From assembly GCF_000214355.1 (NCBI RefSeq), contig NC_015577.1:1473121-1537120 (forward strand): a DNA stretch of 64,000 nt. The letters run 5' to 3'. The notes beneath the pieces were generated by a model that searched no databases, was not told the DNA's origin, and worked only from the letters and a program-made list of their open reading frames with translations. Numbering within the stretch: the stretch's first letter is position 1; the number at the start of each line of letters is the position of its first letter. The position numbers and the translations under genes were made by a program. Origin of the DNA: Leadbettera azotonutricia ZAS-9 (lineage in GTDB: Bacteria > Spirochaetota > Spirochaetia > Treponematales > Breznakiellaceae). Below are positions 1 to 35,533 of the stretch, one piece after another.

Positions 1-438
1 GCTAAAAATTTAAAAAAAGAAGGTAAGAAATTACTTTATCATCCTCATGCCTTAGAGTTTTTTTCATTTGGTGGTGGTTTTAAAGGAATAGATATTATTT
101 TGGAGGAAACTGATCCAGAAGGTTTTTGGTTCTGCCTTGATACTCATTGGCTTGTTGGTGGTGGTGTGAACATAGTAGATTGGCTTTATAAGGTGAAAGG
201 TCGTATGAAAACTATACATTATAAGGATTATGCAATTATAGGTGGTGCAATTAAAATTGAAGAAATACATAAACGTTTTGCGGAGGTTGGAGAGGGGAAT
301 ATAGATTGGGAAAAAATTATTGCCGCAAGTAAAGATATTGGTATCGAATATGCGATTGTAGAACAGGATATTTGTCCAGGGAATCCATTAGATAGTTTGA
401 AAACTAGTTTTAATAACATGATAAAATTTCATGTTTAG
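1..438 (+). CDS. Sugar phosphate isomerase/epimerase-like TIM barrel, 5' truncated by window
   Basis: The frame is open from the first base, so the start lies outside the window; 145 residues remain. They align along their length with the C-terminal half of the next gene: a His in LYHPHALEF, FCLDTHW followed by Gly residues, HYKDY, VGEGNIDW and a final EQD. These are the metal- and substrate-binding strands of the xylose-isomerase-like barrel (AP endonuclease family 2, as in IolE/IolI). Family members isomerise or epimerise keto-sugars or inositol derivatives in the cytoplasm. It ends 22 bases before its paralogue, so the two form a tandem duplication and probably share a transcript. Base composition is very AT-rich. 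The substrate cannot be told from the sequence. Confidence 0.85.
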   Translation, partial: AKNLKKEGKKLLYHPHALEFFSFGGGFKGIDIILEETDPEGFWFCLDTHWLVGGGVNIVDWLYKVKGRMKTIHYKDYAIIGGAIKIEEIHKRFAEVGEGNIDWEKIIAASKDIGIEYAIVEQDICPGNPLDSLKTSFNNMIKFHV

Positions 439-460
439 TTTTTGTAAAGGATGAAAAATT

Positions 461-1276
461 ATGAAAAAGAGTTTAGGTATTCAAATGTATTCAATGCGCA
501 AAAAACTTGCTGAGGTTAATGATCCTAGAATTGTTTTTAGGAAAATAAAAGAAGCAGGATATGATTCTGTTCAAGGTGATCCAAGTCATGGTATGACTCC
601 CAAACAATACAAAAATGCTCTTTCTGATATTGGGTTGTTTCCATTAGTGTATCCTGCATATATAGGAGGGGCAGAAGGGGGAATATTAGGTATTTTACAA
701 AATCCTGATTTTGTTATCAAAGGAGCGAATGCATTTGAAGTAAAAATAGTAGAAGTAGCGACAATACTTAGCGAATATCGTGGATCTGAAGATGATTTTG
801 CTCGTTTTGCCGGATTGATGAATTTGGCAGCTCGACCGCTTGCAAAAGAGGGAATTAAATTATTATATCATAATCATGCATTGGAATTTCATAGATTTCC
901 AAGTGGTAAAACAGGGCTTGATGTCTTAGTCAATGAGACTGATCCTGAATTGGTTGAATTTTGTCTTGATATTCATTGGATGCAGGCAGGAGGTGTTGAT
1001 TCAGCTTTATGGATTAGGAAGCTGAGTGGTCGTATGTCGCTGATTCATTACAAAGATTATGGTATTGAATTAAATGTTCAAAATGCTGGTATCGCACCAA
1101 AGACTTATGAAGCTGTGGGTGAAGGAAATATAAACTGGGGGCCTATTGCAGAGGCAAGTCGTGATGCAAATATTATACATTATGTTGTTGAGCAAGATGA
1201 TAGTAACCGAGATATTTATGATTGTATAACATCCAGTGCAAAATATATTCGGAATACACTTGACTTAATTGATTAA
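461..1276 (+). CDS. Sugar phosphate isomerase/epimerase-like TIM-barrel protein
   Basis: A 271-residue protein of the xylose-isomerase-like TIM-barrel family, close to the usual 270-300 residues. An AAAGGA ribosome site precedes the ATG. Candidate metal ligands are the His residues in YHNHALEF, the Asp in FCLDIHW, the HYKDY motif and the Glu in VGEGNINW near residue 225. No signal peptide, so cytoplasmic. It is the intact paralogue of the partial gene upstream and lies 50 bases before an aldo/keto reductase. Together they look like an isomerase/reductase set for an unusual sugar or polyol, comparable in logic to inositol catabolism. That role is inferred; the fold assignment is firm, the substrate unknown. 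Confidence 0.85.
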   Translation: MKKSLGIQMYSMRKKLAEVNDPRIVFRKIKEAGYDSVQGDPSHGMTPKQYKNALSDIGLFPLVYPAYIGGAEGGILGILQNPDFVIKGANAFEVKIVEVATILSEYRGSEDDFARFAGLMNLAARPLAKEGIKLLYHNHALEFHRFPSGKTGLDVLVNETDPELVEFCLDIHWMQAGGVDSALWIRKLSGRMSLIHYKDYGIELNVQNAGIAPKTYEAVGEGNINWGPIAEASRDANIIHYVVEQDDSNRDIYDCITSSAKYIRNTLDLID

Positions 1277-1326
1277 TTTCTATAATATGTATTTTTAGTA
1301 TAATGATATTAAATGGGGGTTATAGT

Positions 1327-2193
1327 ATGGAACTAAAATCGTTAACTGATTGTTTTTCTTTAAATAATGGTGTTTCAATTCCATGTATAGGTTTTGGTAC
1401 TTGGCAAACACCTGATGGTGATGTCACTGTTAATGCAGTTAAATCAGCAATTGATGCAGGATATCGCCATATTGATACAGCGGCGGTTTATGGGAATGAA
1501 ATTAGTGTCGGTAAAGGCATTAAGGCAAGCGGTATTAATAGAGAAAAAATTTTTGTAACAAGTAAGCTTTTTAATACTGAACATACATATGAGCGAACTA
1601 AGGTTGCTTTTAATAAATCCTTAAAAGATTTACAGCTTGATTATCTTGATCTTTATCTTATCCATTGGCCAAATCCAGTAGATTTTCGTAATAAATGGGC
1701 TGAATCTAATGTAGAAACATGGAAAGCATTTGAAGAATTTTATAATGAAGGTCGTGTCCGTGCGATAGGGGTAAGTAACTTTCATGCTCATCATTTAGAT
1801 GCTTTAACTAAATCTGTTAAGATTATGCCAATGGTTAACCAGCTCCGGTTGTGTCCAGGTGATATTAAGGGTGAGGTAGTAAAAGCCAGTAAGGAACGTG
1901 GTTTATTCATAGAAGCTTATAGTCCGTTAGGAGGAAGTGGCGAAGGTAGTCTTTTAAAAGCACCTCTCCTAATTGAACTTGCGAAAAAATATAATAAATC
2001 TGTTTCGCAATTGTGTGTACGGTGGTGTTTACAATGTGGGTTCTTGCCTTTGCCAAAATCCACATCTACTGATCATATTAAAGCTAATGCTAATGTGTTT
2101 GATTTCAAGTTGTCAGAGGATGATGTTGATCAGTTAAGTCATTTACGAGGATACCCAGATCCATTCCCGCATCCAGATAGTATCACATGGTGA
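1327..2193 (+). CDS. Aldo/keto reductase
   Basis: A 288-residue NADP(H)-dependent aldo/keto reductase of the short bacterial (AKR5-like) type. The full catalytic tetrad is visible: Asp50 and Tyr55 in DTAAVYGNE, Lys80 in FVTSKLFN and His113 in YLIHWP. The C-terminal half keeps the GVSNF strand and a KSTSTDHIKAN segment that resembles the cofactor phosphate-binding loop. An in-frame ATG exists 24 bases upstream, but ATG 1327 is preferred because AATGGGGGT lies just before it. It is the last gene of the AT-rich plus-strand group after the two isomerases. It probably reduces a sugar or keto-acid aldehyde from the same pathway; this is inference. Confidence 0.88.
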   Translation: MELKSLTDCFSLNNGVSIPCIGFGTWQTPDGDVTVNAVKSAIDAGYRHIDTAAVYGNEISVGKGIKASGINREKIFVTSKLFNTEHTYERTKVAFNKSLKDLQLDYLDLYLIHWPNPVDFRNKWAESNVETWKAFEEFYNEGRVRAIGVSNFHAHHLDALTKSVKIMPMVNQLRLCPGDIKGEVVKASKERGLFIEAYSPLGGSGEGSLLKAPLLIELAKKYNKSVSQLCVRWCLQCGFLPLPKSTSTDHIKANANVFDFKLSEDDVDQLSHLRGYPDPFPHPDSITW

Positions 2194-2533: not shown

Positions 2534-4675
2534 TTAATACTTTATGATAATCATATCATATATATTAATTTTTGGAATGTCTATCGTGATTTTATTTTCA
2601 CGATAATCGAAAGGTAAATCGCTTCCATCGACTGTATGGACTTTTTTTGGAGGCTCTGTTGATTTAATCCAGACCCTAAGATCATATGTTGGTGGTATTA
2701 TTGTATCTTCCCGGGTTTCGATTAAGCCAAATAATTTCTGCTTGTTTTCGGGATCGTCGAATAAAATACATTCGATACTGATCGGGCAATCAGCCCCAAA
2801 CTGAAAATCATCACCGGATAAATATCGAATTATTCCGGCAAATATTTCACTGTGTTGGAAACGATCCGCTTTTTCTATTGGCAGGGCACTCCAAATTACT
2901 TTGCCTTTTCCATATAGGGCCTTGATTATTGCCGGTTGATCGGTATAAATTCCCGGAGGATTAGCATGGATTGTTGCAAAGGGGTAATTGGGACTTTTCT
3001 TATCAATATAATATTTTGCAAGTACATCGGTCGGAAATACCGATGCCGGAACTCCAGGCGGGGTATAGGGTAATACAAGTGTCGCTAATATTTCCCCTTT
3101 AATATTACCTTTTTTTAGTATGGGTGCATGCTCAAACATTATCAGAGGATGCTTTTGTGTAAATAACCCCTGCATTATATTGCTATTATTAGCTGGAGAC
3201 ATATAGGTTATATTTTCATAAGTGTAGCGGTCCCATTCGGCATTAAACAGTTCTTTTAATAATACTGGTGATATGTGGCCACTTATATATACATTTCCAC
3301 CATCACGCAGATAATCAAGAATAAAAGAAGCCTGTTCGGGAAGCATTTCAGGCACATCTGATAAGACAAGAGTTTTATGCTCCTTTAACTGTTCTATTTT
3401 CCAATTATTGATTATTCCATACGGAATATGATGCCGCGCCAAAGAGTCTGAAGCACCCCGTAATGCTATATAATGAGGCATAGTCCCGCCTTCAGGTGTT
3501 CCACCATTTAATGCAGGATCCAAAACGTCATATTCCTTGGCTTCAATATCCATTTTCCCATTAAGATCAAAATATAAGCTTACATCCCAGGTCAATTTAC
3601 CATGTGTAAGGTATGGTTCCATTGGTATAACTTCACCAAATACCTTTCCGATGGTTTTGTAAACAGTATCATCAATTGTCCCAACAGGATCGATTGCATC
3701 TATTAATAAAGGGGCACCATGGTGTAAACAGGTCATCGCGACACATTGACGTAATTGGTCATAGGTTTTAGTTGTTGTATGTTCTGATAAGGATGGGTAA
3801 CAACGGGATGTCATATATTGAAACGGTTGATTTTGAGTAAGGTTATACCATGCTTTACAAGCAAAACTCTGCTCTTTTATTCCTCCATATAAATCCGTCC
3901 CGACATAATCACTGGCAAGAGTAACATTTTCATTATTGGCAAAGCGCCAAAAATTCATCGAACTGCCATATTGATGTTCAACAGATACACCAGGTTTAAG
4001 CCTTTTTGCTTCATTTGTAATTGTTTTGGCAAATTCCCCAATCCATTCATGGCGTAATTTTATAAAAGTTTTCCAATTATGATCTTTCCAGTTAACGGTT
4101 TTTGGTAATTCACCTTTGGCGCCGTAGGTCGGAGCTTCTTTTTCCCAACGTTCTTTACAAGAATCACAATAACAAACTTCAGGCCAAAATGTCATATCAA
4201 AAAAGATACCATCATAATCAAAGTAATCACTAAATTCGGCTATTTGTTTTTTAACGAATTCTAAATAGTCCTTATTATTTGGACAATTTAGCCCATAGCG
4301 ACCGCCATAGTCCCTGGATCCTCTGCCTTTTCCGTCTATCATGCGCCATTTCGGATGCAGTTCATAAGCACGATTATTATAAATAATGCTATAGTAGAGG
4401 ATTGTATTAATACCATCATCATGGCATAAATTAAACAAACGTTTCATTGCATCTTCTTTGCCAATAAAACCTTTATGCATTACTCCGGATTCTGTCGGCC
4501 AATAACATAACCCAACATGAGATTGAACGTAAATCATCGCGGCTGAAATTTTTGCTTCTTTTAACGCCTTAAAATAAACTTCAGGATCAAATTCCGAGAG
4601 AAATGTTTTATCCCAGTCTTCTATATGCATATCCATTAAAGTACGACGAAATTTGGTTTTGTACCACGGTTCCAT
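2534..4675 (-). CDS. GHL6-like glycoside hydrolase family protein (copy 1)
   Basis: A 713-residue protein that resembles the hypothetical glycosyl hydrolase 6 (GHL6) group: an N-terminal TIM barrel followed by a beta-galactosidase-trimerisation-like Rossmann domain (about residues 380-600) and a C-terminal beta domain. The barrel shows a candidate catalytic Asp160 in YDGIFFDMTFWP and a Glu in SVEHQYGSS. Directly after Asp160 comes a CYCDSC cluster (Cys168, 170, 173) that could bind a metal. No signal peptide is present, so it would act on imported oligosaccharides in the cytoplasm. It is the last gene of the operon and a close paralogue of 5925-8054. AAGGAG precedes the ATG. Family assignment is by pattern only and the glycan is unknown. 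Confidence 0.72.
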   Translation of the reverse strand: MEPWYKTKFRRTLMDMHIEDWDKTFLSEFDPEVYFKALKEAKISAAMIYVQSHVGLCYWPTESGVMHKGFIGKEDAMKRLFNLCHDDGINTILYYSIIYNNRAYELHPKWRMIDGKGRGSRDYGGRYGLNCPNNKDYLEFVKKQIAEFSDYFDYDGIFFDMTFWPEVCYCDSCKERWEKEAPTYGAKGELPKTVNWKDHNWKTFIKLRHEWIGEFAKTITNEAKRLKPGVSVEHQYGSSMNFWRFANNENVTLASDYVGTDLYGGIKEQSFACKAWYNLTQNQPFQYMTSRCYPSLSEHTTTKTYDQLRQCVAMTCLHHGAPLLIDAIDPVGTIDDTVYKTIGKVFGEVIPMEPYLTHGKLTWDVSLYFDLNGKMDIEAKEYDVLDPALNGGTPEGGTMPHYIALRGASDSLARHHIPYGIINNWKIEQLKEHKTLVLSDVPEMLPEQASFILDYLRDGGNVYISGHISPVLLKELFNAEWDRYTYENITYMSPANNSNIMQGLFTQKHPLIMFEHAPILKKGNIKGEILATLVLPYTPPGVPASVFPTDVLAKYYIDKKSPNYPFATIHANPPGIYTDQPAIIKALYGKGKVIWSALPIEKADRFQHSEIFAGIIRYLSGDDFQFGADCPISIECILFDDPENKQKLFGLIETREDTIIPPTYDLRVWIKSTEPPKKVHTVDGSDLPFDYRENKITIDIPKINIYDMIIIKY

Positions 4676-4692
4676 AAGTATTACTCCTTGTA

Positions 4693-5907
4693 TTATTGGA
4701 TAATTAAATCAGGATTTTCAGCGAAATGCTTTAAAATGACTATATCTTCTACAGTTGAACAATTTTTAATGATAATCCCCTTCTTTGCGGCTTTTTCCGT
4801 TACAAAGTATTCATCATTGGTCAATTGACCGTAACGAATTAAAGTAGGAGTCTCCAGTTTGTGCCCTCCAAATACGCCATTACCCTGGAGGCAAATAATC
4901 CCATAAGCAGCATTGTCCTTTATAGTAACTGTCCTGCCGGGAAGAACCGTTAACCTCTTTGCGCTCACCTTATTGCATTTATAGCATATCCATTCATCAA
5001 TGTAACCATCTTCTTTCATTTCAGCATATGGTTTTACTGGTTTTGGCTGCATGAAACGGTTTTTATGAAAATCAGGATCGGTATTAATTTCCCAGTCTAT
5101 AACCTCTATAAGATAATCAAAATTACCCTTTTCTTCAGGAGGGCAATCTTTCCATAATAATTCTTCAGAAACGCAATGCTCATAATATAAAACAGATTGA
5201 TACATTGCAAAAACATCGGATGCAAATTGCGGTTCATAAGTACAGAGGCTTCCAGGTGAATGAAGGACTCCAGGAGGGACATCCCATCCGGTATCCAGTT
5301 CAAGCTTAAATGATCTGGAAAGACTCAAAATATTATTATCACCTTTTGAAAAATTTTCTAGGGCATGTTTAACCTGCTGCTTTGTGTTATCAGGATTTAT
5401 ACCAAAAAAAGTGAATGGAAATTCTCCTCCATGATTATTAACCTGGGAAGGAAAGAAATACATTTCTGGTTTTCCAGATTGTCCGACACGGGCAGCGAAT
5501 TTATCGTTGTGATGAATATGATGAGGTAGTGGACCTAGATTGTCAAAAAATTTAGAATATATCGGCCAACGTCCGTATTTTTTATAAAGGACATCTCCGA
5601 TCGCCTCTTCTTTTAAGATTTCAATCGCATCCCTTAATAAAATTTTTTCGTCTTTTTTTTCATCCACTATAATATAACTTAAGCCCTCATCTTCAGTTGT
5701 CTTTGGACCATTTTCGGCATGGGTTGTAGATGAAAACCATCGTTCATCTATAGCTCCACGATCTAGTCCATAGATATAATAATCTGATGGGTGAAGCTTA
5801 ATACGTTTTCCCGGTCTGCAAAAAGATCGGGGAACCCATGTTGGTATTAAATGAAAAACACCATTTCCTTTTTCCAGTGCCTTCTGTGACAACTCTTTTC
5901 TATTCAT
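4693..5907 (-). CDS. Phosphomannose isomerase-like cupin protein
   Basis: A 404-residue cytoplasmic protein with cupin features of type I mannose-6-phosphate isomerases. The zinc-site pattern appears as PHHIHHND (His129, 130, 132, 133) with Glu148 in GKPEMYFF, followed by a GWDVPPGVLHSPG strand near residue 215 that supplies another candidate His. The C-terminal part (about residues 300-400) looks like a second cupin barrel and contains CYKC. Length is near that of type I isomerases, but the N-terminus differs. It sits between the two GHL6-like genes, with GGGAG before the ATG. It probably isomerises, or senses, the sugar those enzymes release; that is inference, and a non-catalytic cupin is possible. 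Confidence 0.65.
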   Translation of the reverse strand: MNRKELSQKALEKGNGVFHLIPTWVPRSFCRPGKRIKLHPSDYYIYGLDRGAIDERWFSSTTHAENGPKTTEDEGLSYIIVDEKKDEKILLRDAIEILKEEAIGDVLYKKYGRWPIYSKFFDNLGPLPHHIHHNDKFAARVGQSGKPEMYFFPSQVNNHGGEFPFTFFGINPDNTKQQVKHALENFSKGDNNILSLSRSFKLELDTGWDVPPGVLHSPGSLCTYEPQFASDVFAMYQSVLYYEHCVSEELLWKDCPPEEKGNFDYLIEVIDWEINTDPDFHKNRFMQPKPVKPYAEMKEDGYIDEWICYKCNKVSAKRLTVLPGRTVTIKDNAAYGIICLQGNGVFGGHKLETPTLIRYGQLTNDEYFVTEKAAKKGIIIKNCSTVEDIVILKHFAENPDLIIQ

Positions 5908-5924
5908 AAAAAACTCCCAATAAA

Positions 5925-8054
5925 TTAAAATTGTAGTAACAACATAGAGTAAAGATGTAAATTATCAATAGGAATTTGGACCTGCTGATTTCCATAAATG
6001 TACTTAACCGGGCTTTTTTCCGGTAGTTTAAGTACTTCTTTAGGAGCAATCTCAGAATAGACCGAGACGGTAAAATTACCTACCGGAATAGTATGAAAAC
6101 CTTCTTGAATATTAATAATTCCTAGAATTTTTACCTTTTTATTGGGATCGCTAAATAGAATAAATTCTATGGGCTCAGGAGCATTGTCGGAAGAGAATAC
6201 AGGGATATTATCTTTTAATAATATTTTAATTATTCCTGAGAAAATATCGCTATGCTGCTCACGCTTGGCGCGTTCTATAGGTAAAGTTGAATAGAAGACC
6301 TTTCCTTTACCGTATTCTGTGAGCATCATTGCAGGTTTATTTGTAAATTTTCCGGGTGGATTGGAATGAATAGATGCAAATTTATGAATTTCATCATCAA
6401 GTTTTTTCTGTATCTCATCAAGTTTTGGGGTTACATTTAAGAAATTACTCCTTGGATTTGGGATTGTATAAGGAAGAGTTGTTGTTCCATATATCTTACC
6501 TATAGGTTTCCCTGAATATATGGGCTGGGGTTCAAACATTGCCAATGGATATTGCTTTGTATACTCATTTCTAAATACGAATGCTCCTTCTTCTGTTGGT
6601 GAAATATAAGTTACCTTCTCATCTGTAAAATTTTCAAATTTTATTTTGAATATTTCTTCAATAAGGGAAGGAGAAGTTCTACCACTTATATAAGCACTAC
6701 CGCCATTAGATATATATTTTTTAATCACACTTAATTCTTTGTCACTCAAAAATGGAATGTCTGAAAGGACGAGTACCTTTACTGTATTATTATTTAATAA
6801 TTCCAATTTCCAGCTGTTTAAAACGGAATAGGCAATATGATGAGCTCGCAAACAATTCCCAGCTTCCAATGCAGATAATTCGGGTGGCGTTGTATTTTCA
6901 GCTGCTATTTGATCAACGGGTATACCGTTAGCCAATGTATCCATTTTTGCGAATAAATTAAAATACAGCCCCACATCGTAAACATGTTCACCTATTGACA
7001 TATAAGGCTCAACTTTCTCGGCCTCGCAGAATATTTCTCCGAATTTTTTATAGACACGATTATCAATGGTGCCTATAGGATCAATAGCGTCAATTAGCAA
7101 ACAAGCACCATGATGCAGATAAGTAAGCATAACGCTTAATTTCAAAAGGTCCATGGATTTGTTGGTTGTATGCTCTGCAAGTGATGTATAACAGCGTGAG
7201 GTCATATATTCAAATGGTTGATTACGAGTTAAATTATAATAAACCTTACAAGCAAAAGATTGTTCGGCAATTCCACCGTAAAGATCCCCGCCCGCATAAT
7301 CGCTAGCCAAGGTAATATTTTCGTTAACCCCAAATCGCCAATTGTGATTAACAACAGTAGAATACTGATGTTCAACAGAACAATCGGGTTTATGTTTTTT
7401 TACTTCCGCTGTAGCGAATTGAGCAAATTCACCCAGCCAATCAATACGCTTGCGTTGAAATTTAACCCAAGCGTGATCGTTCCAATCAACAACGTCCGGC
7501 ATATGTCCACCTATTTCTTTTTCCCATCGTTCCTTGCAGCTATCGCAGTAACAGACCATTGGCCAGAATGTCATATCAAGAAAAATCCCTTCAAATTGAA
7601 AGTAGTCACTTAATTCTTTGATTTGTTCGGCAACGAAATTTCTGTAATCAATGTTATTAGGGCAGCATAGTCCATATCTAGAGCCGTCAAATCTTGAACC
7701 GTGATCGTGGATATTTTTCATTTGCCAGTCCGGGTGTTGCTTATAAGCCCAATTATTATAAATAAGGCTATAGTAAGCTATGACATCCATTCCGGCTCCA
7801 TGGCATTTATCTACTAATTGACGAATTATATCCTCTTTGCTCTTAATACCTTCATGCATTTTCCCGCTTTTTGTAGGCCAATAGCAGAGACCAACGTGGG
7901 ATTGTAAATAAATCATAGGTGCATTTATATTTGCTTCTATAAGATTATCTAAATAATTTTTCGGATCAAATTTGGATAAAAATTCTTTATCCCATTCCTC
8001 AATATGCATGTCAATCAAATTTCTTCTGAATCTGTTTTTATACCATTCTTTCAT
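5925..8054 (-). CDS. GHL6-like glycoside hydrolase family protein (copy 2)
   Basis: A 709-residue paralogue of the gene at 2534-4675, with the same domain order and strongly conserved blocks (DMHIEEWDKEFLSKFDP, SHVGLCYWPT, GIFLDMTFWPMVCYCDSCKE, SVEHQYS, LASDYAGGDLYGG, GACLLIDAIDPIGTID). The candidate catalytic Asp, the SVEH Glu and the CYCDSC cluster are all kept. There is no export signal. GGAGG precedes the ATG and the gene follows the inner-membrane permease gene by 33 bases, so it is translated from the same message as the transporter. Keeping two intact copies suggests different linkages or subsites rather than redundancy. Activity is unproven. Confidence 0.72.
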   Translation of the reverse strand: MKEWYKNRFRRNLIDMHIEEWDKEFLSKFDPKNYLDNLIEANINAPMIYLQSHVGLCYWPTKSGKMHEGIKSKEDIIRQLVDKCHGAGMDVIAYYSLIYNNWAYKQHPDWQMKNIHDHGSRFDGSRYGLCCPNNIDYRNFVAEQIKELSDYFQFEGIFLDMTFWPMVCYCDSCKERWEKEIGGHMPDVVDWNDHAWVKFQRKRIDWLGEFAQFATAEVKKHKPDCSVEHQYSTVVNHNWRFGVNENITLASDYAGGDLYGGIAEQSFACKVYYNLTRNQPFEYMTSRCYTSLAEHTTNKSMDLLKLSVMLTYLHHGACLLIDAIDPIGTIDNRVYKKFGEIFCEAEKVEPYMSIGEHVYDVGLYFNLFAKMDTLANGIPVDQIAAENTTPPELSALEAGNCLRAHHIAYSVLNSWKLELLNNNTVKVLVLSDIPFLSDKELSVIKKYISNGGSAYISGRTSPSLIEEIFKIKFENFTDEKVTYISPTEEGAFVFRNEYTKQYPLAMFEPQPIYSGKPIGKIYGTTTLPYTIPNPRSNFLNVTPKLDEIQKKLDDEIHKFASIHSNPPGKFTNKPAMMLTEYGKGKVFYSTLPIERAKREQHSDIFSGIIKILLKDNIPVFSSDNAPEPIEFILFSDPNKKVKILGIINIQEGFHTIPVGNFTVSVYSEIAPKEVLKLPEKSPVKYIYGNQQVQIPIDNLHLYSMLLLQF

Positions 8055-8087: not shown

Positions 8088-8912
8088 TTAACCCTTTACA
8101 GCACCGACAGTAAGACCGCTGATAAAGAATCGCTGAGCAAAAATATAAACTATAAGAAGTGGCATCATAGTAATTATTCCGGTACCCATAAGCATATTCC
8201 ATTGGGTTCCATAACGACCCTGGAAAAAAGTAATCCCCAGAGGCAAGGTATACAGAGATAATGTATTAATAACAAGCATGGGCCAAAGAAAATTGTTCCA
8301 TGCGAACAGGAAAACAAATGTTCCCAATGTTGCCAGTGCAGTTTTGCTGAGGGGAATAATTATAGCAATATAGCACAAAAAGTAGCCACCACCATCAATC
8401 TTAACTGACTCTTCTAATTCACCCGGAATGGTCATAAAGAACTGACGCAGCAGAAACGTCCCATAAGCACTGAATAATGATGGTACAATAATTGCTTTTA
8501 AAGTATTAATTAATTTGAGGGTCTTTATTATGGAATAAATTGGAATCATTGTAACCTGAAATGGTATCATTAGCGTAGCAAGATATAGTAGAAACAATTT
8601 ATCTCTACCCTTAAATTTTAGACGGGAAAATGCATATGCGCCTAATGAACAGGTTATTAGTTGACCGACAGTAATGGCAATTGATACAATAATATTGTTT
8701 ATATAAAATTGCCCAAATGGAGCGGCATTCCATAAAGCAATATAATTCTTGAATTGCCAATTCTGTGGAAACAATTTAGGAGGATATAAGAATACTTCGC
8801 TTGCAGGTTTTAAGGATGTTGTAAGCATCCAAAGAAAGGGGAATACCATAATAATTCCCATTATTATTAGAGCTAAATAAATAAAGAAGTTGATGCTTCT
8901 ATTGGTTTTCAT
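8088..8912 (-). CDS. ABC sugar transporter permease, MalG type
   Basis: A 274-residue inner-membrane permease of the carbohydrate uptake type 1 family. It begins with a transmembrane helix (LALIIMGIIMVFPFLWMLTTS) followed by the typical SLKP segment. The EAA loop is recognisable near residue 168 (EESVKIDGGGYFLCYIAIIIPLSK), although EAA is changed to EES and the usual Ala-Gly is altered. The C-terminus GLTVGAVKG is the family signature. Its start overlaps the stop of the upstream permease by one base (TAATG), so the two are translationally coupled. Its ATPase is not encoded here; a shared MsiK-like ATPase elsewhere is likely. Confidence 0.92.
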   Translation of the reverse strand: MKTNRSINFFIYLALIIMGIIMVFPFLWMLTTSLKPASEVFLYPPKLFPQNWQFKNYIALWNAAPFGQFYINNIIVSIAITVGQLITCSLGAYAFSRLKFKGRDKLFLLYLATLMIPFQVTMIPIYSIIKTLKLINTLKAIIVPSLFSAYGTFLLRQFFMTIPGELEESVKIDGGGYFLCYIAIIIPLSKTALATLGTFVFLFAWNNFLWPMLVINTLSLYTLPLGITFFQGRYGTQWNMLMGTGIITMMPLLIVYIFAQRFFISGLTVGAVKG

Positions 8913-9784
8913 TAATAATTAACCCATTTCCTTTGCGCTCGCCATTGTACAAGGGTAATTGCCATTATTACAATAAACAATAAAACTGAAGAGGCGCAAG
9001 CAACCCCCATTCTCATTGTTTGGAATCCTTGTAAATATATATAATAGACAATAGTGGTTGTGGAATATGCAGGTCCACCCTTTGTTAAAATGAATGTCTG
9101 ATCAAATACCTGAAAAGAACTGATTGTTCCCATAATAATTACAAAGAATAAAGTTGGGGATAAAAGCGGTAAAGTAATATTTTTAAGCTGTTGAAGCCTT
9201 GTCGCTCCATCCATCCGCGCTACCTCATAATAGGTTGGATCAATGCCCTGAAGACCAGCCAGGAGAAGGACAATGTTATAACCTAATCCTTTCCAGATAC
9301 TAACGAGACTGACAGAGAATAAAGCCCATTCAGTACTGCTTAAGAAATGCGGAGCCTTAATATTGACAAGGGAAAGAAGATAGTAAATAAGACCGATATC
9401 ATCCTGCAAAAGCCAACGCCAGAGCATTGCTACACCAACCATTGTAGCTATTGTAGGAATAAAAAATATTGCACGGAATAACGTAACCCCTTTAATTTTC
9501 GTATTTAGGAGCAAAGCAAAAATTAAAGCTATTGCTATTCCGCAGGGAACAGTTGCAACTGTATATACAAAGGTATTAGTAACAGTTTGGATAAATCGTG
9601 AGTCTTTAAAGAGAAATTTAAAATTAGCGAATCCAACCCATTTTGGAGAAGTTATTAAATTCCATTCGGTGAGTGAAAAATAAAGAGAGGCAATAATAGG
9701 CCCAATTGTGAATGCCATAAAGCCAACAATATTGGGTGCGAGGAAACATGTTGCGGCGAGGGCCTCTTTTTTCTTGCTATCCAT
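8912..9784 (-). CDS. ABC sugar transporter permease, MalF/UgpA type
   Basis: A 290-residue partner permease with about six membrane helices. The EAA loop is YYEVARMDGATRLQQLKNITLPLLSPT near residue 190, a good match to the consensus that docks on the ATPase. The helix FQVFDQTFILTKGGPAYSTTTIVYYIY is typical of this subfamily. It follows the solute-binding lipoprotein gene by 67 bases, a spacer that contains a hairpin, and overlaps the next permease by one base. With its partner it moves the oligosaccharide presented by the lipoprotein into the cell, where the two GHL6-like enzymes could act. Confidence 0.92.
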   Translation of the reverse strand: MDSKKKEALAATCFLAPNIVGFMAFTIGPIIASLYFSLTEWNLITSPKWVGFANFKFLFKDSRFIQTVTNTFVYTVATVPCGIAIALIFALLLNTKIKGVTLFRAIFFIPTIATMVGVAMLWRWLLQDDIGLIYYLLSLVNIKAPHFLSSTEWALFSVSLVSIWKGLGYNIVLLLAGLQGIDPTYYEVARMDGATRLQQLKNITLPLLSPTLFFVIIMGTISSFQVFDQTFILTKGGPAYSTTTIVYYIYLQGFQTMRMGVACASSVLLFIVIMAITLVQWRAQRKWVNY

Positions 9785-9851: not shown

Positions 9852-11108
9852 CTACCTTGCCTGAATTTCAGCAACAGCCTTCATAAAATTATCCATACCC
9901 TGTTTTGCGGTTACCTGGCCGATATAAATCTGGTCAAGTACATTGGCAAGTTCAACTTCACTTTCAGTACGGAAGGGATAATCAATCCAGGTAGATCCCT
10001 TCATTATGTCGAAGAAAAGCTGAGAATGCGGAACAGCAAGTTTGGAAGTGAGCATAAGGGGTGCTGACGATACTCTACCTGGAATACCCCTGTGGGTGGC
10101 GCCGACAATTTCACCAAGTTTTTCCGAGCTGGTATAGGTTTTTAAAAAATCCCAAGCGATGTCAGGGTATTTTGTCTTGGAAGAAATGGCGAAGGAACCG
10201 CCCTCAGTTACTCGTTTGCCGTTTTTACCTAGGAAAGGATAATCCATAACATCAAGTTTGATATCGGGCATATCGGTTCTAATTTTCATTACCCACTCAG
10301 GGTTAACACTGTACATAGCAACACGCTTGGACATAAAAAGTGACTCAGCAGCTGTTCCTCTGTCCCAACGAGGCTGTGTACCATTGACAAGGGCTAAATC
10401 AGCAAGCCATTGGATTGTATTTACTGCATCAGATTTATTGAGAGCAATATTCCCGCTGGAATCCAGGGGATTAACACCGGCAGCACAGAGCAAATCGTAC
10501 ATTACCCAGCCGTCAACATAAAAATAGGAAGCATAATGGCTTGAGTTGGTAAGTTTTTTGCTTATCTGGACAAATTCCTCCATGCTGTAACCTTCCGGAC
10601 GGTATTCGACACCCATTTCTTCAAAAATATCCAGATTACAGAGCAGTAAATTGGTAGATAGATCGTAGGGGAAGCAATATACACCGCCATTAACGGTGTA
10701 TGCTTCCATCATGCCAGGCCAGAAATCTGCTAAATTAAAATTTTCTTTCTTTATATAGGGTGAAAAGTCATATAGGGCACCATTTCGGATAAAGAAATTG
10801 GAATACATACTGACCATTCCGATAATATCCGCCTGTGCATCTGCAGCTATCTGGGAATTCAATTTAGTCCAATATTCGCCCCAAGGTGTACTTTCTGCAA
10901 TTATAGTTACATTCGGATGAAGAGCCATGTATTCATCAATGCCCTTCTGCCATGCAGGCATATCGGCAGCGCCAAACCAGAACGAAAGCCTAAGGTTAAC
11001 CTTTTCATCCCCTGCCGCAGCAGCTTTTGATTTTCCTTCACAAGCAAGCAATACCATAGCCACAATGAAGGTCAAAACCAGCAAAAAAATTTTCCGTCCC
11101 TTTTTCAT
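9852..11108 (-). CDS. ABC sugar-binding lipoprotein
   Basis: A 418-residue family 1 extracellular solute-binding protein. The N-terminus is a lipoprotein signal: a Lys/Arg start, a hydrophobic core and the lipobox LLAC with Cys23. The mature part has the family pattern LRLSFWFGAADMPAWQKGIDEYM, WGEYWTKLNSQIAADAQADI and a late GGSFAISSKTKYPDIAWDFLKTY segment. AGGAGG sits before the ATG. It is the first gene of the transport/glycosidase operon, directly behind the promoter at 11141-11169. It captures the sugar outside the inner membrane and passes it to the two permeases. Ligand unknown. Confidence 0.92.
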   Translation of the reverse strand: MKKGRKIFLLVLTFIVAMVLLACEGKSKAAAAGDEKVNLRLSFWFGAADMPAWQKGIDEYMALHPNVTIIAESTPWGEYWTKLNSQIAADAQADIIGMVSMYSNFFIRNGALYDFSPYIKKENFNLADFWPGMMEAYTVNGGVYCFPYDLSTNLLLCNLDIFEEMGVEYRPEGYSMEEFVQISKKLTNSSHYASYFYVDGWVMYDLLCAAGVNPLDSSGNIALNKSDAVNTIQWLADLALVNGTQPRWDRGTAAESLFMSKRVAMYSVNPEWVMKIRTDMPDIKLDVMDYPFLGKNGKRVTEGGSFAISSKTKYPDIAWDFLKTYTSSEKLGEIVGATHRGIPGRVSSAPLMLTSKLAVPHSQLFFDIMKGSTWIDYPFRTESEVELANVLDQIYIGQVTAKQGMDNFMKAVAEIQAR

Positions 11109-11330: not shown

Positions 11331-12368
11331 TTACCATCCAATCAAATCCCATTCATTTATTGCATTTATGTCTGAAGATCGGCGTATGATCAAATTTGAA
11401 TCCAATTTGTTGGAATGGGGGTAAGAGCCACCAGAACTGGTTTCCATGATAATCCGCGCCGCCATACGGCCCATCAAAAAAGTGGGGACATTTATGGTCG
11501 ATAATGCAGGATCGATAAGTGTCGAGATGCTCAAGTTATCAAACCCTACTATAGCGCAATCCTTGGGGATGTTTTTCCCATTGGCCCGTAATGCTTTTAT
11601 TGCCCCTATGGCCATCTGATCATTAGCGGAAAATATGGCGGTAAAATCCCTTCGAATATCAAGTAATTTTCTTGTCGCTAAATATCCGCTTGCTGCGGTA
11701 AAATCACCTTGCTGAATTAATTCCGGGTCTATTGGTATGCCATTTTCAATCAATGCATGCTTATAGCCTTCCAATCGCTCAAATGAATGCTGCATGTGGC
11801 TGTTTCCCAATATATGGGCTATTTTTTTGTGCCCCAGATCAATTAAATGCTGTGTTGCTTTCTGGGCGCTGGTAAAATTATCCAAATAAATAGTATAAAA
11901 CTTTTCAGATTCCAGTTTTCGTTCCAATATCAATACGGGAATGTTTTTGCTTATGAATTCTTTTTCCAGCCATGAATAATAATTGCTTTCCAAATCAGAA
12001 GGGCAGATAGAATCTACTATGACACCGGTTAAAAATTGTTTGTGCAGTGTTTTAAGGAGCATTTGTTCTTTTTCAAAACTATAATTTGAATTAAAAAACA
12101 AAAGATAATTTTTATCCTTTGAGATGGTATCCTCGATCCCGGTAAGAACATTGGAAAAAAAAGAACTGGTAATAATGGGCAGTACAACCGCTATTGTTTT
12201 TTGACTAGACCTCTTTTTTTCTGTAAAAATATATCCTAAATCTTTTGCAGCCGCATATACTTGCTTTCGGACATCATCGCTTACATATTTATCGCTGTTG
12301 CTTAAGACTGCGGAAACTGTGGATAATGCTACTTTTGCATGCCTTGCAACATCGCGCATTCCCGGCAT
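11331..12368 (-). CDS. LacI-family transcriptional regulator
   Basis: A 345-residue regulator. The N-terminal helix-turn-helix MRDVARHAKVALSTVSAVLSN matches the LacI/GalR consensus, followed by a hinge and a periplasmic-binding-protein-like sensor domain (IAVVLPIITSSFFSNVLTGIE; HKKIAHILGN; TAIFSANDQMAIGAIKALR; DCAIVGFDN). AGGAGA precedes the ATG. It lies upstream of, and in the same direction as, the ABC/glycosidase operon, with 222 bases between them holding the operon promoter. It probably represses that operon until a sugar from the pathway binds. It is the last AT-rich gene before the composition changes. Confidence 0.93.
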   Translation of the reverse strand: MPGMRDVARHAKVALSTVSAVLSNSDKYVSDDVRKQVYAAAKDLGYIFTEKKRSSQKTIAVVLPIITSSFFSNVLTGIEDTISKDKNYLLFFNSNYSFEKEQMLLKTLHKQFLTGVIVDSICPSDLESNYYSWLEKEFISKNIPVLILERKLESEKFYTIYLDNFTSAQKATQHLIDLGHKKIAHILGNSHMQHSFERLEGYKHALIENGIPIDPELIQQGDFTAASGYLATRKLLDIRRDFTAIFSANDQMAIGAIKALRANGKNIPKDCAIVGFDNLSISTLIDPALSTINVPTFLMGRMAARIIMETSSGGSYPHSNKLDSNLIIRRSSDINAINEWDLIGW

Positions 12369-35190: not shown

Positions 35191-35533
35191 TGGAGGTGGC
35201 GGGAGTCGGACCCGCGTCCTGGTGTGCGAGATACAAGCGTCTACAGGTTTAGCCGCGCATTGAATTGTCGGGAGGAGTTTGGCTGCGCAGCGCGCGGCTT
35301 CTCCGTATTCCGGAATTTTCTCGCCGCACACCGTCCGGAAGCGGTGCTTGGCCAGCCTTGATTGTGACGCGGGAGCCGTTCCTCAAGGCGGCGGAACGGT
35401 CCCACGCAATTACGCAGCTAAGGCGTAGTTGTAATTGTCGTTGTCGGCAATTAAAGTTTTGCCCAATCAGGAGATGGGCGCTCCACCTGCAGCCTGTACC
35501 CCGAATCGCATCAGTCGAAACCGGTGCACCCCC
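35191..35533 (-). ncRNA. ssrA: tmRNA (transfer-messenger RNA)
   Basis: Read on the minus strand, the RNA begins GGGGGTGCACCGGTTTCGAC, the tmRNA 5' signature, and ends with the T-arm CGGGTCCGACTCCCG and CACCTCCA, which pairs with the 5' GGGGGTG as the acceptor stem. The CCA is not encoded. The length is 343 bases. The internal reading frame is at 35410-35448. It rescues stalled ribosomes with SmpB and tags proteins for degradation. A promoter is visible just upstream, and the gene lies between the broken HD-GYP gene and a divergent hypothetical gene. Confidence 0.95.
35410..35448 (-). other. ssrA: tmRNA proteolysis tag reading frame
   Basis: Within the tmRNA, resume codon GCC begins ADNDNYNYALAA followed by TAA, preceded in the finished tag by the Ala carried by the tmRNA. 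The ending ALAA is the standard recognition end for ClpXP-type proteases. Confidence 0.9.

Follow-up and report, generated by a model that had tools for sequence, protein, structure and literature searches.

Closest described systems

The Pfam family GHL6 overlaps glycoside hydrolase family 151 (GH151), and the activity of this parent group is that of an alpha-L-fucosidase. The closest known systems are ALfuk2 of Paenibacillus thiaminolyticus (structure 6TVK), Mfuc3 and Blon_0346. ALfuk2 uses D154 as nucleophile and E235 as acid/base (PMC10154630). Mfuc3 matches both GHL6 and the middle domain of GH42 and cleaves p-nitrophenyl (pNP)-fucose by assay (PMC4723247). Here we describe a locus of Leadbettera azotonutricia ZAS-9, contained in a stretch of 64,000 nucleotides ("the window"; NC_015577.1, positions 1,473,121 to 1,537,120), in which two GHL6 paralogues, the twins A and B, flank a cupin. 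The twins belong to a sister clade of GH151 that itself has no assayed member. The locus as a whole is best explained, with a probability of about 0.6, as a sugar-utilisation operon for import, GHL6 cleavage and isomerisation by the cupin, whose product a kinase and epimerases would take further. A preliminary description of this DNA held the glycosidase group to be largely uncharacterised, a view at odds with the GH151 overlap, the solved 6TVK and the assayed Mfuc3. Its proposal was tied to a family with no assigned activity; this stands for the twins' clade and falls for the parent family.

The GHL6 twins and the GH151 fold

Both twins match Pfam GHL6 (57.8 and 66.7 bits; cut-off 35), and their match to Alpha_L_fucos is weak. 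The Pfam scan of the twins gave no match to the Glyco_hydro_42 catalytic domain, and they carry D160 instead of a Glu pair. A profile of 15 GHL6-clade proteins matches 6TVK at full length (profile positions 9-677, E 3.7e-46). The predicted GHL6 model (predicted local distance difference test score, pLDDT, 88; predicted template modelling score, pTM, 0.90) also has 6TVK as its best structural match (Z 35.2, root mean square deviation 3.4, 626 residues aligned), with GH42 enzymes next. By sequence and by fold alike, the homology of the twins to GH151 is full-length. At 51% identity between A and B, their duplication is old; a recent tandem event is ruled out, as a Mediterraneibacter protein (58%) is nearer to A than B is.

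D160 is present in both twins and ends strand beta-4 (residues 156-160) in the model. It aligns with residue D183 of the 6TVK chain, that is, D154 (a 29-residue chain offset, counted through the alignment), and on this alignment is the GH151 nucleophile position. The acid/base Glu (E235 of ALfuk2) occurs in 6TVK and nine Spirochaetota GH151-type proteins, within LELES or a close variant of it, and is missing in 21 of 21 clade members. Because E235 is missing, and because D261 is invariant in these members and ends strand beta-6 in the model, D261 is the natural candidate and probably the acid/base of the clade; its correspondence to E235 comes from strand ends and sequence alignment, not from superposition. 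LELES-LPTGGWGY, slightly altered in some, is common to the ten GH151-type proteins, most of which also have HQHxP, whereas the 21 cupin-type proteins have in common DYxGGD(L/F)YG, R291, H299 and IHSNPP-like motifs. The GH151 HQHxP region (with His503, a residue of the neighbouring monomer) aligns with the IHSNPP of the clade, the His being one column off. In the tree, the cupin-associated and GH151-type proteins form separate clades (support 100/99), and genes of both types sometimes occur in the same genome. Since E235 is missing, with D261 as the candidate in its place, and the clade is separate, the twins should not be filed in GH151, though they are expected to work like its members. Pfam GHL6 is split: the GH151 fucosidases are its characterised half, and their sister clade is uncharacterised; as the catalytic motif of this clade is different, automatic "alpha-L-fucosidase" labels on it may be wrong. 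One clade member (L183, G147:C90) has an in-frame stop and no adjoining cupin, and is probably a pseudogene.

All the closest characterised relatives of the twins are alpha-L-fucosidases, and a FucI-family protein is found in nine of nine clade-bearing genomes tested, this one included. The twins might therefore be ordinary GH151-like alpha-L-fucosidases that supply L-fucose to a separate L-fucose isomerase route of the genome, the cupin being ancillary and acting, for example, on the leaving sugar. However, LELES-LPTGGWGY and HQHxP are replaced clade-wide, the separation of the two clades, at times within one genome, suggests different substrates, and the contexts of the cupin indicate pentuloses rather than fuculose. 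We regard this explanation as unlikely.

The cysteine cluster

In GH42, a zinc ion is held by four cysteines, a CxCxxC motif and one Cys about 40 residues upstream (C115, C155, C157, C160); it is reported to stabilise the catalytic domain and to take no part in the reaction (PMC12095705). The preliminary description had noticed a candidate catalytic Asp followed at once by CYCDSC, and both twins indeed carry C168-Y-C-D-S-C173, starting eight residues after D160. C131, C168, C170 and C173 are invariant in 21 of 21 clade members and in 6TVK, and match the four-Cys pattern of GH42 at the level of sequence. As this spacing equals that of a zinc site reported as stabilising, a structural role is the simplest reading: CYCDSC and the upstream Cys most likely form a structural zinc site of the GH42 kind, not a new catalytic metal. 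The position of the cluster just past the nucleophile and its invariance in the clade might instead point to a catalytic metal site, in line with the new metal-containing hydrolase that had been proposed. This is very improbable, as the same pattern in GH42 binds zinc without a part in the reaction, 6TVK keeps the four Cys despite its different catalytic motifs, and GH151 already has an assigned Asp/Glu pair.

The cupin as a putative aldose isomerase

The cupin has no Pfam or NCBIfam match, the phosphomannose isomerase (PMI) profile included. Its own profile matches phosphomannose isomerases (E 9e-5 to 8e-4), and its model has the PMI fold (Z 21.6, 279 residues aligned), the next family reaching only Z 11; the resemblance to PMI noted in the preliminary description is upheld. 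The metal-site residues H130, H132, E148 and H216, together with K146, are invariant in 43 cupin homologues, in a region aligned with 1ZX5. Confirmed relatives number at least 578, in hundreds of species, and the literature searched gave no relevant report of the cupin acting as a sugar isomerase. In the spirochaete loci L053, L041 and L039, the cupin lies with a ribose-type importer (RbsBCA-type in L053), UlaE, an FGGY kinase and AraD, and in L042 it directly precedes AraB and AraD. Because of its PMI fold, its conserved metal ligands and the pentulose kinase and L-ribulose-5-phosphate epimerase neighbours of its relatives elsewhere, the cupin is probably an aldose isomerase, which is our best single guess. 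The common thread of its contexts is sugar catabolism at the level of isomerisation, and this very common, unnamed cupin is a probable missing sugar isomerase.

A narrower version would have the cupin stand in for AraA as an L-arabinose (or L-ribose) isomerase of non-orthologous origin, with the twins releasing L-arabinose. In this genome, AraB (731 bits) and AraD adjoin and AraA is not detected, while in genomes G003 and G039 the cupin, AraB and AraD stand in a row, again without AraA. Cupin and AraB co-occur across 393 Spirochaetota genomes (Fisher p 1.9e-11, with no correction for relatedness). However, AraB-bearing genomes without AraA do not have the cupin significantly more often than those with it (8/19 vs 8/31, p 0.35), and 11 AraB genomes lack both. 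By phylogenetic profile, replacement of AraA thus has no significant support, and it is weakened further by the FucI-superfamily isomerases of this genome, which could perform the isomerisation step; as an account of the locus it is doubtful. At L163:8614-11027, AraB lies next to AraD in a genome without detected AraA.

Pairing of cupin and GHL6 genes

The genome has three cupin copies: in the window, about 10 kb away, and beside a third GHL6 gene (Table 1). Among the 80 nearest cupin loci (the best 80 of at least 578 relatives), 13 include GHL6. A search of 393 Spirochaetota and 196 Clostridia genomes with the GHL6-clade profile, which was built mostly from cupin-adjacent sequences and may be biased towards them, placed a cupin within 1.5 kb of seven of the eight high-scoring clade genes of Spirochaetota (>590 bits). 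None of the Spirochaetota GH151-type genes, several of them in the same genomes, has an adjoining cupin.

Some observations weigh against the proposed operon or against a plain isomerase role of the cupin everywhere. In Clostridia, an intact adjoining cupin is found at only one of ten high-scoring clade genes; beside two others the cupin has decayed, once through an internal deletion and once to a short remnant, and in one genome a cupin lies at another place. A divergent cupin (L058) adjoins an AraA-like isomerase, the window operon itself lacks a kinase, and in Bacteroidota the cupin belongs to a DUF4432-cupin-TIM-GFO/IDH cassette without GHL6 or kinase. The co-occurrence proposed for searching in the preliminary description is therefore repeated with the clade in Spirochaetota and loose in Clostridia. 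The GHL6-cupin association is real but not obligate: obligate pairing, which holds for seven of eight Spirochaetota genes, fails in Clostridia, and because the link is loose there, the glycosidase and cupin steps are not obligately coupled.

The Bacteroidota cassette, which is conserved and often accompanied by a 3-keto-disaccharide hydrolase, also suggests that the cupin could act on oxidised (keto) sugars made by GFO/IDH oxidoreductases, the locus being a 3-keto-sugar pathway that includes the divergent GFO-TIM-TIM-aldo-keto reductase operon. GFO/IDH and TIM-barrel genes do adjoin the window operon, and a dehydrogenase (MDR), GFO/IDH, cupin and GHL6 are common to L067 (Mediterraneibacter) and L036. 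Yet the TIM and GFO proteins near the twins are not close to those of the Bacteroidota cassette, no DUF1080 hydrolase was seen in the cluster, and the twins show hydrolytic GH151-like features, which leaves this pathway quite unlikely.

Proposed pathway

From gene content, homology, folds, conserved residues and clade structure, the following activities, zinc binding and order of steps can be proposed. The ATP-binding cassette (ABC) system would import a small glycoside. The cytosolic twins, of GH42-like architecture, would act by a retaining mechanism to remove the non-reducing sugar of this glycoside, D160 serving as nucleophile and D261 probably as acid/base, while zinc on C131, C168, C170 and C173 would stabilise the loop after strand beta-4. 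The cupin would convert the aldose set free in this way into a ketose. An FGGY kinase, such as that encoded next to the second cupin copy, about 11 kb away, would phosphorylate the ketose. L-ribulose-5-phosphate 3- and 4-epimerases could then lead the product into the pentose phosphate pathway. The sugar may be, at a guess, an L-pentose or a 6-deoxy-L-sugar. A more ambitious claim has two parts: the cupin-associated clade would amount to a new family, or at least subfamily, of glycoside hydrolases, with its acid swapped from Glu to Asp and a new substrate, and the 404-residue cupin would stand for a widespread new family of aldose isomerases that depend on metal and feed pentulose-kinase pathways; that both parts hold is slightly short of an even chance.

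Locus layout

The features are collected in Table 1. The three genes first described, the twins and the cupin between them, are intact and all on the minus strand, and the dedicated transporter and LacI regulator reported with them were found. Along the run of GHL6, cupin and importer genes there are gaps of 17, 17 and 33 bp, and one permease gene directly adjoins the other, so the twins, cupin and importer are likely one operon. The lack of export signals was also confirmed: the twins and the cupin are without a hydrophobic stretch at the N-terminus, whereas the binding protein has one of lipoprotein type.

Table 1. Features of the locus and of related loci (positions refer to the window unless a locus is named).
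Feature	Position	Strand	Description
Divergent low-GC operon end	1..2193	plus	two AP_endonuc_2 TIM-barrel proteins and an aldo-keto reductase
GHL6 A	2534..4675	minus	713 aa, predicted GH151-like retaining glycosidase; intact ORF, Pfam match
GHL6 A residues			D160, nucleophile position; C131/C168/C170/C173, predicted structural Zn site; D261, candidate acid/base
Cupin	4693..5907	minus	404 aa, phosphomannose isomerase fold; predicted aldose-ketose isomerase
GHL6 B	5925..8054	minus	709 aa, paralogue of A, 51% identical
ABC sugar permease	8088..8912	minus	Pfam BPD_transp_1
ABC sugar permease	8912..9784	minus	Pfam BPD_transp_1
Extracellular solute-binding lipoprotein	9852..11108	minus	family match and lipoprotein-type N-terminus
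LacI-family regulator	11331..12368	minus	Pfam/NCBIfam
Second cupin operon	L035:5364-10093 (G000:C1:1463363-1468092)		LacI, UlaE-like 3-epimerase, FGGY kinase, cupin; normal GC, immediately ahead of the low-GC island
Third GHL6 and cupin	L036:6685-15450		with URO-D-like protein (no Pfam or NCBIfam family match), zinc dehydrogenase, ABC importer
Decayed cupin genes beside intact GHL6-clade genes, Clostridia	L221:8000-8600 (G404:C86); L229 (G397:C33:6666-6791)

The first AP_endonuc_2 protein of the divergent operon starts before base 1 of the window, and upstream of the window lie genes for a GFO/IDH oxidoreductase and a further ABC importer. The guanine-cytosine (GC) content is about 36% over positions 1-12.4 kb, against 50-55% beyond. 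This low GC (about 33-39%) begins near G000:C1:1,468,000, spans some 17 kb with two divergent sugar operons and stops where the LacI gene ends. The nearest relatives of GHL6 A are in Lachnospiraceae-type genomes (58% to a Candidatus Mediterraneibacter protein), and the cupin is, among the matches listed, 73% identical to a protein of a Treponema metagenome-assembled genome and 64-70% to several Lachnospiraceae-type proteins, which suggests that the stretch was acquired horizontally. The host is presumably a spirochaete of the termite-gut type. The window also contains a transfer-messenger RNA gene (35191-35533, minus strand).

Comparison with known systems

The cupin resembles type I phosphomannose isomerases (3H1M, 1ZX5) in its fold (Z 19-22) and in the HxH, KPE and His residues of the metal site, but differs in having no Pfam match and about 15% identity, and in neighbours that suggest a non-phosphorylated sugar substrate. 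In pentose pathways of the L-arabinose/L-lyxose type (AraBD, UlaE, FGGY kinase), its relatives occupy the place expected of the aldose isomerase; unlike those pathways, some clusters are without an AraA-type isomerase and the window operon is without a kinase. The twins share with GH42 (beta-galactosidases and an alpha-L-arabinopyranosidase; 3TTS, 1KWG, 5XB7) the domain order, the middle (trimerisation) domain and the four-Cys zinc pattern, but GH42 has two catalytic Glu residues and identity is 10-13%. With GH151 they share full-length homology, a TIM barrel followed by a Rossmann-like middle and a C-terminal beta domain, an Asp nucleophile on strand beta-4 and the four-Cys pattern. However, they are only 18% identical to 6TVK in the structural alignment and lack its acid/base Glu and HQH motifs, and they are set apart from GH151 by the invariant D261, H299, R291-C292 and IHSNPP, by their separate clade and by their cupin partner.

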